Below are positions 25,647 through 29,722 of a DNA stretch of 64,000 bases, piece after piece; position 1 is the first letter of the stretch, and every line of letters starts with the position of its first letter. The notes under the pieces are model-generated. The model saw only the letters and a list, made by a program, of their open reading frames with translations, made no database searches and was not told the DNA's origin. Source of the DNA: Thermaerobacter sp. FW80 (lineage in GTDB: Bacteria; Bacillota; Sulfobacillia; Thermaerobacterales; Thermaerobacteraceae); contig NZ_CP037895.1 of assembly GCF_004634385.1 (NCBI RefSeq), positions 248,001-312,000 on the forward strand. The letters run 5' to 3'. The translations under genes and the position numbers were made by a program.

Positions 25647-26030
25647 TCAATGTGATTGTCGTCGCGGGTTGCTCGAACTCTCAATGCGTTTTAGAATCCA
25701 CGCATCAATGGCTTCGCGACGCTGGGCCGCCGTTCGGTACACCACCAGTCCATCGCGCTCTGCGACTGCCGCAATGACCGCAATCTGCACGACGCCGGTC
25801 TCGGCAACCTTCCACACGATACGAATCCTCTTACGGTCCACGTACACACTCCGAAAACCTGCCAGATTGAGGCCAGCAAGATGCCCCAGCGGCTTCCCCA
25901 CCTGATCCGGTGCCCGCGCGATCTTCACAACGGCCCGGAGGACGAGGACTCGCTGCGACCGGTCTAAGCGGCCCAAGTCGGCCCTGGCGTCGGGGAAAAA
26001 CCACACGTTTGGTGGTAAGACTTCACTCAT
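25647..26030 (-). CDS. RelE/ParE-family toxin of a type II toxin-antitoxin pair
   Basis: 127 residues from ATG 26030, which overlaps the end of the upstream antitoxin gene by 8 bp. The core (FFPDARADLGRLDRSQRVLVLRAVVKIA, GLNLAGFRSVYVDRKRIRIVWKV, VAERDGLVVYRTAAQR) has the RelE/ParE fold pattern of beta strands with basic residues, and resembles mRNA interferases more than gyrase poisons. An active-site Arg/His set cannot be assigned with certainty. The usual antitoxin-first order and coupling support the call. A C-terminal extension rich in Ser, Asn and Arg follows. Expected role: growth arrest when free of its antitoxin. Confidence 0.7.
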   Translation of the reverse strand: MSEVLPPNVWFFPDARADLGRLDRSQRVLVLRAVVKIARAPDQVGKPLGHLAGLNLAGFRSVYVDRKRIRIVWKVAETGVVQIAVIAAVAERDGLVVYRTAAQRREAIDAWILKRIESSSNPRRQSH

Positions 26031-26385
26031 CGTCCATGTCCACGTCCCCGACCAGCTCGTCCGGGGTGATCCCAAACTCCTTCATCACGTCCGCCAACGG
26101 GATCATCTGCTCCCCGGAGACTGCCGCGTGGAGCACCCGTGCCAGAACTTCCAGCTCCAGCTCGAGTTCGGCGGCCTTTTCGGCCTTCTGCCACAACACC
26201 TCGAACTGGTCATAGGGCAGGATCGTGGTCCGGGGATCGGATCCGGAAAATACGAGGACATAGGGAAACTCGCGAAGCTTGGGTTCCACGCGAGAACGCC
26301 AGTGGCGCGCCACATCGGTGGCCGAAACGATCTGGTCCCGTGTAAACGGCGGCTTGGAAGCCATGGCGGCCGTACCCCCTGCCAT
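26023..26385 (-). CDS. Phd/YefM-like antitoxin
   Basis: 120 residues from ATG 26385, preceded by the near-perfect SD AAAGGAGG; an internal ATG at 26364 is less favoured. The N-terminal part VSATDVARHW followed by VLVFSGSDPRTTILPYDQFEVLW follows the Phd/YefM pattern (DNA-binding dimerisation domain), and the Glu/Leu-rich helix and acidic tail (DELVGDVDMDDE) would neutralise a basic toxin. It is the first gene of the pair and overlaps the toxin gene by 8 bp. Likely autorepressor of the operon through the repeats just upstream. Confidence 0.65.
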   Translation of the reverse strand: MAGGTAAMASKPPFTRDQIVSATDVARHWRSRVEPKLREFPYVLVFSGSDPRTTILPYDQFEVLWQKAEKAAELELELEVLARVLHAAVSGEQMIPLADVMKEFGITPDELVGDVDMDDE

Positions 26386-26404
26386 GTTCGACCTCCTTTC
26401 ATCG

Positions 26405-26430
26405 TATGCGCTTTTTCAACATTTTATGCG
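26405..26430. promoter_or_regulatory. A+T-rich control region of the toxin-antitoxin pair with direct repeats
   Basis: TATGCG occurs at 26405-26410 and 26425-26430, 20 bp (two helical turns) apart, in a distinctly A+T-rich stretch immediately upstream of the antitoxin SD. On the minus strand ATAAAAT lies between them as a possible -10. This is a candidate autoregulatory operator. Confidence 0.4.
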
Positions 26431-26595
26431 TATTTATTTTCGCGCTTTGACTCGACTCGCGCAATGCCTCCGCTTGCCGACGGGCCAGCCGCGGCCTCGC
26501 GACGGCCACTGCACGGCCCAAGGCTCGGCCGGCTTACGGCGGTCGGGAGCAAGATGATGGACCTGGCGGCCAGGCCTGCGGCCAAGGAGGCGTCA

Positions 26596-27231
26596 CTACG
26601 GTCCGGGCTGTCGGAGCCGCCTGCGCTCCCCCGTCGACGATCTCCACCCCGGCAGGAACCATCCGCGCTTCCCCAGCACGGTCATGGTGACGTTGACCAG
26701 GAAGTGCGCCCACACCGCGGTCCAGATGCTGCCAGTGAACCAATATCCCCAACCCAGGAGGAGCCCGATCCCCCACGCCCCCGCCAGCAGCACGGGCCGC
26801 GTCACATACCGCACGTGGGCCACGGCGAAGACGGCCGCTGCCACCGCTAGGCCTACGGCCACGGAGGGGATCCAGCGAAGGAGCAGGGATTGGATCGCTG
26901 CCCGGAAGAAGAGCTCCTCGCCGAGGGCCGTCAAGGCCATCAGCAGGACGATGTGGGCGTAGCTGAGCCGGGTGAAGAAGGCGTTGGTTCCGTCGTCGGC
27001 CCACAACCCTTCGGGGAGGAACACGGCGATGCCGATTTGCATCGCCACGGCGAGGAGGCCCAGGATCGTTCCCAGGCCCAACACCTGCCGCGCATCCCCC
27101 AGCGCGAGCAGCCGGGACCACGAGGGCGTCTTGGCATCGCCGAGCAGGAGGATGAGGAAACCAAACACCCCGACGTACACGGCGCTCAGGTAGAGCATCC
27201 ACAGGGAGGGCGTCCCGTTCCGCTGTTCCAC
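26596..27231 (-). CDS. CPBP-family intramembrane glutamic protease (CAAX protease/Abi)
   Basis: About 211 residues from GTG 27231, chosen because AAGGAG lies 9 nt before it; ATG 27270 in the same frame has no SD. Six or more membrane helices are visible. The three family motifs are present: GEELFFRAAIQSLLL (catalytic Glu-Glu and Arg), FAVAHVRYV (His), and WAHFLVNVTMT (His and Asn). Bacterial CPBP proteins act in peptide processing, bacteriocin self-immunity or protein sorting; the substrate here is unknown. It stands alone, downstream of the dehydrogenase pseudogene. Confidence 0.8.
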   Translation of the reverse strand: MEQRNGTPSLWMLYLSAVYVGVFGFLILLLGDAKTPSWSRLLALGDARQVLGLGTILGLLAVAMQIGIAVFLPEGLWADDGTNAFFTRLSYAHIVLLMALTALGEELFFRAAIQSLLLRWIPSVAVGLAVAAAVFAVAHVRYVTRPVLLAGAWGIGLLLGWGYWFTGSIWTAVWAHFLVNVTMTVLGKRGWFLPGWRSSTGERRRLRQPGP

Positions 27232-27337
27232 GCTGTGGGGCTCCTTCTCGTCGTCTCGTGTGACACCCATCACCGGAAACCGTGGCACCCGTCACCCGCG
27301 GTAGGGGCGTCCCAAGCGCCCACGGGCACGGAGACCG

Positions 27338-27851
27338 TCAAGCGGCCCCCAGCCCGCTCCCCGGATTCGGCTCCAGAGCCGCCCACCGCTCGATCGCGCG
27401 CAGGATGGCGCTGAAGTCGAGATGCCCCAGCCCCCCGGCCGTGGCGGCGGCGTAGGTCTGGGCCACCTGGGCGGTGGCAGGCATGGGCACCCGCGCCTCG
27501 TGAGCGGCCGCCAAGGCCAGGCCGAGGTCCTTGTGCATCAAGGCCAGCTGGAACTCTCATGTCGACCCAGACGAACCGGCGCCCAGCCCCCGCGGCGGTC
27601 AAAAGGCCCTGCTCGCCCCGCGCCACCGCGGCCACCGCTGCCGGATCGGCGACCATGGTCACCACCACGTCAGACCCGGCCGCCACCTCGACCGGTGAGG
27701 CCTTCACCACGGCCCCGGCCCGGCCGAGTTCCTCTGCCCGGGTTGGCGTCCGGTTCCACACGGCCACCTCGAAACCCGCCTTGATCAGGTTGCGCGCCAT
27801 GCGACTCCCCATGGCGCCAAGGCCGATCCATCCCACGCGCCGCAAAGGCAT
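27338..27851 (-). pseudogene. 3-hydroxyisobutyrate dehydrogenase-family gene with large internal deletion
   Basis: From ATG 27851 the N-terminal Rossmann half is intact (VGWIGLGAMGSRMARNLIKAGF with the NAD(P) fingerprint, AVWNRTPTRAEEL). After RRFVWVDM, near 27557, the frame breaks. In the +1 frame FQLALMHKDLGLALAAAHE follows, which is the C-terminal helical domain with its conserved Lys-Asp, and it runs to the stop at 27338. About 115-120 codons between the two, including the substrate-binding loop, are missing compared with the usual 290 residues. Seen: the two in-order pieces in different frames. Inferred: one deletion event, no active enzyme. Confidence 0.75.
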
Positions 27852-28592: not shown

Positions 28593-28612
28593 TGATACGG
28601 AGGTTCGGACCC

Positions 28613-29722
28613 GTGGTCCGTAAGCTGCGGGTGACCGGCGAGTTCGTCCGCGTCGACGAGCAGCTTGGCCGCCTTCCGGGCGTCTTCGCCCGGTTCGACG
28701 GCCTGGTAGCCGCGTTCCTCCACGGCAGTTACGGCACCCCGCACCAGACGCCCCTGAGCGACGTGGACCTCTCCGTGGTCTACCGGCCGGAGCGGCTTCC
28801 GGACCTTCGGGAACTCGTGAACCTCCAGGGTGCCGTGGAAGACGCCCTGGGCCTCGAAGACGTGTCCGTCACGATCCTCAACGGGACACCGTTGCCCTTT
28901 CAGTTCCGCGTGCTGGCCAGCGGCCGGCTGCTCTACGTCGCCGATCCCGTAGCCTTGGCGGACTTCCGGGAACGCGTCTGCAAGCTCTACGGGGATTTCG
29001 AGCCCGACTACCGGTGCCTGGCGTTGGACTACAACCGGGCGCTGCAGGAAGCCCATGCCCCGCTGAAGGAGGCGTACGCCCCGCTCCAGGAGGCCTGCGC
29101 TCCGATGGACGAGGTGCCGCCTTCCCATTCTTCTGGCGGGTCCCAGGATCCGGGCAGGGCCAAGGGAGAAGGTCCGGATCCCGGCGGCCCCACCCCCACG
29201 GACGAACCCGGCCGGCCGACGGCAGGCCCGCGCCGGGACGGCCCCGAGGGCGTGCCGGAAACGCGGCCGGCAATGAACGGCGAGCCCCCGACCACGACGT
29301 TGGGCGTCATCGACCGGGAGAAGGTACGGGACAAGCTCGACTTCATTCGCAGGAACCTGGTGCACCTCGCGGCCCTCGCCGGGCGCGGGCCCGGGGCCTT
29401 GCGCGATGACAAGATCGCCGAGGCCGCGACCGTCCACATGCTACAGACCTCCATCGAGGCGATGATCGACGTGGCCAACCACGTGGTGGGCCGGCTGGGG
29501 CTGGGGGTTCCCAAGGCGTACCGCGAAGCCTTCGACCTGCTGGTGGAAGCCGGGATCCTCCCCGCGGAGCACCGGGCCACCTTCCACCGGATGGTCTGCT
29601 TCCGCAATCGCGCCGTGCATCTTTACGACACCATCTCGCCCGAAGAGGTTCATGGGATCCTGGCCCATCACCTGGGGGACTTCGACCTGTTCATCGGGGC
29701 TGTCGTGCGCCAGTTCTTCTAA
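28613..29722 (+). CDS. Single-chain MNT nucleotidyltransferase-HEPN protein (MntA-HepT fusion)
   Basis: 369 residues from GTG 28613 (GGAGGT 8 nt upstream). Residues about 25-140 are a minimal nucleotidyltransferase (MNT) domain with the metal motif HGSYGTPHQTPLSDVDLSVV (Gly-Ser, then Asp-x-Asp). A linker of roughly 90 residues follows, starting with three 7-residue repeats (EAHAPLK, EAYAPLQ, EACAPMD) and continuing Pro/Gly/Asp-rich. Residues about 235-369 are a HEPN domain of HepT type, with the RNase motif Arg-x4-His-x-Tyr in FRNRAVHLYD. In the known HepT/MntA toxin-antitoxin system these are two proteins, and MntA adds AMP to the Tyr of the HepT motif. Here both are fused and both motifs are intact, suggesting inhibition in cis. 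Confidence 0.8.
   Translation: MVRKLRVTGEFVRVDEQLGRLPGVFARFDGLVAAFLHGSYGTPHQTPLSDVDLSVVYRPERLPDLRELVNLQGAVEDALGLEDVSVTILNGTPLPFQFRVLASGRLLYVADPVALADFRERVCKLYGDFEPDYRCLALDYNRALQEAHAPLKEAYAPLQEACAPMDEVPPSHSSGGSQDPGRAKGEGPDPGGPTPTDEPGRPTAGPRRDGPEGVPETRPAMNGEPPTTTLGVIDREKVRDKLDFIRRNLVHLAALAGRGPGALRDDKIAEAATVHMLQTSIEAMIDVANHVVGRLGLGVPKAYREAFDLLVEAGILPAEHRATFHRMVCFRNRAVHLYDTISPEEVHGILAHHLGDFDLFIGAVVRQFF

Follow-up and report, generated by a model that had tools for sequence, protein, structure and literature searches.

A candidate type VII HepT/MntA module encoded in a single frame in Thermaerobacter

Described HepT/MntA modules and nucleotidyltransferase-HEPN fusions

In HepT/MntA modules, the AMPylation of the tyrosine of the toxin's RX4HXY motif by the GSX10DXD nucleotidyltransferase MntA is established (PMC7641770; PMC11586414). 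In S. oneidensis the complex forms a hetero-octamer, its asymmetric unit containing HepT and MntA at 3:1, and D71 of MntA binds the second Mg (PMC7641770). Single-chain arrangements have also been recorded, since a 2013 survey of HEPN domains noted HEPN-M/DUF86 as 'occasionally fused to MNT', the HEPNs so fused being typically devoid of RNase residues (PMC3710099).

The locus described here lies at positions 28613-29722 (+) of the window, i.e., the whole 64,000-nt stretch of the Thermaerobacter sp. FW80 genome that was analysed, and encodes an MNT domain and a HEPN domain in one frame. It shares with S. oneidensis HepT/MntA (SO_3166/SO_3165) both domains, the gene order, the GSX10DXD and RX4HXY motifs, and the HEPN fold, whereas the S. 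oneidensis system consists of two separate proteins and the window has one frame with a linker and a serine in place of D71. Type VII modules comprise two separate genes, antitoxin first; the order is the same here, but the genes are not separate, and because the single frame lacks an mntA stop codon the locus was filed as a variant of HepT/MntA type VII. The fusions of the 2013 survey (DUF86-MNT, aminoglycoside nucleotidyltransferases) likewise combine an N-terminal nucleotidyltransferase with a C-terminal HEPN, but their HEPNs are typically without RX4H (PMC3710099), the mark of domesticated nucleotidyltransferases, whereas the RX4H of the window is intact, with R331 and H336 present. CapRel, too, carries a toxin and a neutralising domain in one polypeptide, although its domains are unrelated; phage sensing has been shown for CapRel (PMC9712102), whereas no evidence of it was found for the window, nor did anything point to the phage or nucleotide-change trigger that the original prediction had proposed.

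The fused protein had no match in phage records, and no paper on a fused HepT/MntA was found in the literature searched. With MNT-HEPN fusions on record since 2013, the locus is best read as a type VII HepT/MntA module in a rare single-frame form and not as a new system; the designation 'undescribed system', given in the original prediction, was too strong in view of the DUF86-MNT fusion in that survey (PMC3710099). Its argument that fusion removes an antitoxin-degradation switch is also weak, because HepT/MntA neutralises by covalent AMPylation (PMC7641770) and not through sequestration by a labile antitoxin.

The fused gene and its orthologues in the genus

Translation from the GTG at 28613 yields a single uninterrupted frame of 369 aa with no stop, preceded at 28599-28603 (+) by the Shine-Dalgarno sequence GGAGG, 9 nt before the GTG, with an anti-SD pairing of -10.7 kcal/mol. 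The MNT domain (aa 1-149; 28613-29059, +) ends where split MntA proteins end in the alignment; it is identified by Pfam PF18765/PF01909 (Polbeta, PF18765: aa 25-111, E=1.5e-13) and by the NCBIfam MntA family NF047752 (64.8 bits, curated cut-off 60). The HepT-type HEPN domain (aa 241-360; 29333-29692, +) matches Pfam HepT-like (PF01934: aa 257-362, E=6.2e-23) and the NCBIfam HepT family NF047751 (107.1 bits, E=5e-31, curated cut-off 60), and its best Foldseek matches are the S. oneidensis HepT chains. Both catalytic motifs are intact, namely GSX10DXD (G38-S39-x10-D50-x-D52; aa 38-52; 28724-28768, +) and RX4HXY (R331-x4-H336-x-Y338; aa 331-338; 29603-29626, +), so that the two domains joined in one open frame and the complete motifs are as originally predicted. 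In the alignment of MNT homologues, G38, D50, and D52 are present in 27/27 sequences and S39 in 26/27. The domains are separated by a disordered linker of about 80 residues, with a Pro/Gly-rich core (aa 167-220; 29111-29272, +) of AlphaFold2 pLDDT mostly below 50; the two domains are modelled with pLDDT above 90, but at a pTM of 0.49 the model gives no relative placement of MNT and HEPN. A scan of the genome found no second such locus, and a promoter and terminator scan around this one found nothing.

The MNT metal site differs from that of S. oneidensis, as S85 (28865-28867, +) aligns with D71 in the profile alignment to 5YEP chain A. The corresponding column of the 27 MNT sequences holds N in 15, D in 8, and S in 4; since this mix includes split relatives, Ser85 can be ascribed to the subfamily rather than to the fusion, and the missing third Asp, shared by split sisters, was rejected as a mark of fusion. 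The third ligand, being N, S, or D in split relatives, is thus not an absolute feature of the family. With Ser at this position, the activity of the MNT domain is not assured.

The window's own genome (G000) was compared with three other species of the genus (G001, G002, and G003). Full-length fused orthologues of 355 and 379 aa, without stops, occupy the same locus in G001 and G003, the Shine-Dalgarno sequence of the GTG start being kept in both, and linker lengths among the fused orthologues differ by multiples of 3. A sequencing or assembly error was rejected as the cause of the fusion because the independent assemblies of these two species carry the full-length fused ORF; a stop or frameshift in the linker, proposed earlier as the refuting observation, was not seen in the window, and the frames of G001 and G003 are open too. 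Nei-Gojobori estimates of omega among the fused orthologues, which number three congeneric copies only, are 0.23-0.39 for MNT, 0.45-0.77 for the linker, and 0.38-0.58 for HEPN. Judged from these ratios, the MNT and HEPN domains are constrained and the linker is loosely so, with purifying selection on HEPN modest.

The linker of G003 (L003), compared with L001 and L002, is far more diverged in its first half than the flanking domains and nearly identical to that of G000 in its second half, a pattern that suggests mosaic evolution or recombination.

In G002, only the first ~70 codons of the fused gene are left and the last four-fifths are lost. The lost part is replaced by ~2.3 kb of foreign DNA (L006:1711-2895; L026 8794-11107), where a 464-aa ORF places an RsgA-like GTPase, as read from the translation, in frame behind the remaining MNT codons; fragments of another nucleotidyltransferase-like gene lie 3' of it. 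A further candidate in this genome (L064) was rejected as a fusion, being a divergent stand-alone HEPN.

Several features were observed in the neighbouring DNA. A gene resembling 6-phosphogluconate/3-hydroxyisobutyrate dehydrogenases (27270-27851, -) appears truncated in the window, where ~270 bp of its G003 counterpart, between 27555 and 27719, are absent. Two small overlapping ORFs at 25647-26385 (-), toxin-antitoxin-like by eye, had no Pfam or NCBIfam matches. Over the block 25674-27255, identity to G001 reaches 96.9%, against 85-93% for neighbouring blocks, and most of the block is missing from the locus of G003, which suggests that it was recently transferred.

Origin of the fusion, internal hepT start, and acceptor tyrosine

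Outside the genus, the closest homologues (L004, L021, and L005) are split, overlapping mntA-hepT pairs; a scan of genome contigs gave three relatives, and a close reading of one of them, L021, showed an ordinary pair with overlapping genes. Their domains are ~48-67% identical to those of the fusion, with the same motifs and the same variant third metal site ('DVSVT' or 'DVSIT'), but their mntA stop overlaps the hepT start and they have no linker. In split relatives generally, hepT starts at an ATG or GTG just before the mntA stop, and, where the junction of split pairs was read, most have a GGAGG within the last mntA codons, which would serve as the hepT Shine-Dalgarno. As in L004 (GGAGG-CCTACCGGG-ATG, 9 nt) and L021 (GGAGG-CGTATGGCG-ATG, 9 nt), this internal GGAGG is found in the fused gene, for instance at the G001 junction (GGAGG-CCTACGCGCCG-ATG). 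In the window, the retained hepT Shine-Dalgarno AGGAGG (29088-29093, +) is translated as Q/K-E-A where the MNT domain ends, and the candidate hepT start ATG (Met165; 29105-29107, +) follows after 11 nt in the MNT frame. This AGGAGG-11 nt-ATG arrangement is found in all three congeneric species with the full-length fusion, compared with ~9 nt in the closest split relatives; owing to the two extra bases, the hepT ATG is in the mntA frame and the mntA stop is gone. It therefore appears that a frameshifting indel of ~2 nt, within the ancestral overlap of the two genes, produced the fusion. A derivation of the linker from another gene was rejected, as only short, weak matches were found elsewhere in the genomes.

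The same junction holds a 21-nt unit encoding 7 aa (29042-29104, +), present in three copies in the window (LQEAHAP LKEAYAP LQEACAP) and in one in G001 and G003. The first copy has GGAAG, not GGAGG, and the SD-like sequence is therefore left only in the copies nearer the ATG.

That the locus makes a single chain only, as had been assumed, is not supported, given the retained hepT start. Anti-SD pairing at ATG 29105 is -10.3/-11.0/-10.9 kcal/mol in the three species, close to the -10.7 to -11.5 kcal/mol of the GTG start, while internal in-frame ATGs of the window's long open frames have a median of -3.8 kcal/mol, 5.8% reaching -10. Because the hepT ribosome-binding site and ATG are kept in three species at the start position of split relatives, the locus probably still yields a free HepT of ~205 aa, in which a 65-aa tail precedes the HEPN domain, although the 11-nt spacing, which exceeds the ~9 nt seen in the closest relatives, counts against this. 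Given three HepT per MntA in S. oneidensis, we infer that more HepT than MNT would not be unusual for such a module. Free MntA, to judge from the reading frame, cannot be made, and the fused product is unavoidable because the mntA stop codon is missing. The in-frame linker indels are no proof of that product, since they lie downstream of ATG 29105 and are equally explained by hepT translation from it. An internal start previously placed at ATG 29274, and in fact at 29273, was rejected, as it has no Shine-Dalgarno (-3.5 kcal/mol) and is ATA in G001; TTG 29300 (ATG in G001) would give a plausible HepT N-terminus, but is an unlikely start because it has no Shine-Dalgarno (-2.2 to -3.7 kcal/mol).

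Fusions were also sought among relatives, the class, and the phylum (~900 genomes counted, some in more than one scan), giving two more single-frame fusions with essentially no linker, G105 (L031) and G340 (L065), both from draft assemblies. The same domain order thus recurs in G001, G003, G105, and G340, whereas the closest relatives outside the genus are split. No MNT-HEPN fusions were found in phage and plasmid records; in H26 and H32, the HEPN gene is annotated as a separate CDS. In the HEPN tree, split sequences separate three fusion lineages, which implies at least three separate origins of the fusion. G105 keeps a TTG with GGGAGG where hepT would be expected to start, and the G340 junction shows no evident start codon in frame.

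The acceptor tyrosine was compared between the five fused proteins and a non-redundant set of 49 split HepTs, 47 of which share their locus with an MNT frame. It is present in 49/49 split HepTs and lost in 3/5 fused proteins (Fisher 0.0004, relatedness ignored), being Cys in G003 and G340, deleted in G105, and kept in the window and G001. Conversely, R and H of RX4H are kept in 5/5 fused proteins, against the loss of R or H in 3/49 split ones. In these three (L022, L077, and L101), the acceptor Tyr is retained, and so is a neighbouring MNT. A further loss in G105 is that of the Gly in the GS motif. Loss of Tyr with R and H kept does not look like random decay, in a sample of only five sequences, two of them draft.

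Possible modes of neutralisation and their meaning

Our favoured reading, held with moderate confidence, is that the locus is a type VII HepT/MntA module in which the two overlapping genes have merged into one frame with a tethered antitoxin. Ribosomes starting at GTG 28613 would produce the MNT-linker-HEPN fusion, and those starting at ATG 29105 a free HepT with a long N-terminal tail. The tethered MNT domain would neutralise the HEPN RNase of its own chain or of an associated free HepT, in the window's species most likely by AMPylation of Tyr338 on its own or a partner chain, and fused chains would keep in check the free HepT that arises from the internal start. The locus would accordingly act as a constantly guarded RNase toxin and not as a signal-gated enzyme.

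Alternatively, the tethered MNT domain might physically occlude or hold HEPN in cis, the acceptor Tyr becoming dispensable while the RNase residues are kept, and a signal might release the toxin. Three independent fusion lineages, the Tyr lost in 3/5 fused proteins against 0/49 split ones with R and H retained throughout, the additional loss of the GS-motif Gly in G105, and the precedent of CapRel as a signal-released fused toxin-antitoxin protein (PMC9712102) are consistent with this; however, the Tyr is kept in the window's protein and G001, numbers are small with G105 and G340 in draft form, the disordered linker and pTM of 0.49 predict no fixed domain interface, and no trigger or defence neighbourhood was found, so that this mechanism appears unlikely. 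It is equally doubtful, if conceivable, that neutralisation shifted in the independent fusions from covalent modification to cis-inhibition, leaving the RNase motif intact in a single-chain latent RNase.

Fusion could instead be an early step in the loss of a decaying or domesticated module, with HEPN toxicity weakened or gone. Substitutions that look damaging occur in the HEPN of G001 (the helix prolines L309P/L310P, and I315R), in G003 (Y338C), and in the window's own copy, G000 (R329C); HEPN omega reaches 0.58, G002 has lost everything after codon ~70, and fused MNT-HEPN proteins are said to be typically without RNase residues (PMC3710099). Yet none of the five fused proteins has lost RX4H, the frame is open in three species with omega below 1, and the genus' fused HEPNs, with 8-11 residues never seen elsewhere where split HepTs have a median of 8, are not outliers; decay is, on this evidence, improbable. 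A pair that is ordinary in function, with the internally started HepT as toxin and the fusion as an antitoxin with a harmless tail, would account for the retained hepT Shine-Dalgarno and ATG, and hepT translation alone would explain the in-frame linker indels downstream of ATG 29105. However, with no MntA stop codon every antitoxin molecule bears a HEPN with intact RX4H, and G340 is a fusion without an evident in-frame hepT start, which makes such a pair very unlikely.

According to the surveys, nucleotidyltransferase-fused HEPNs usually lost their RNase residues and became mere substrate-binding modules. Here, the fusion is recent, has a visible molecular cause, and leaves both active-site motifs intact, while sister species show different fates, with the Tyr kept, the Tyr lost, or the gene truncated. 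Two questions thereby become testable: whether an AMPylating antitoxin may be functional though unable to leave its toxin, and whether tethering would remove the need for an AMP-accepting tyrosine.
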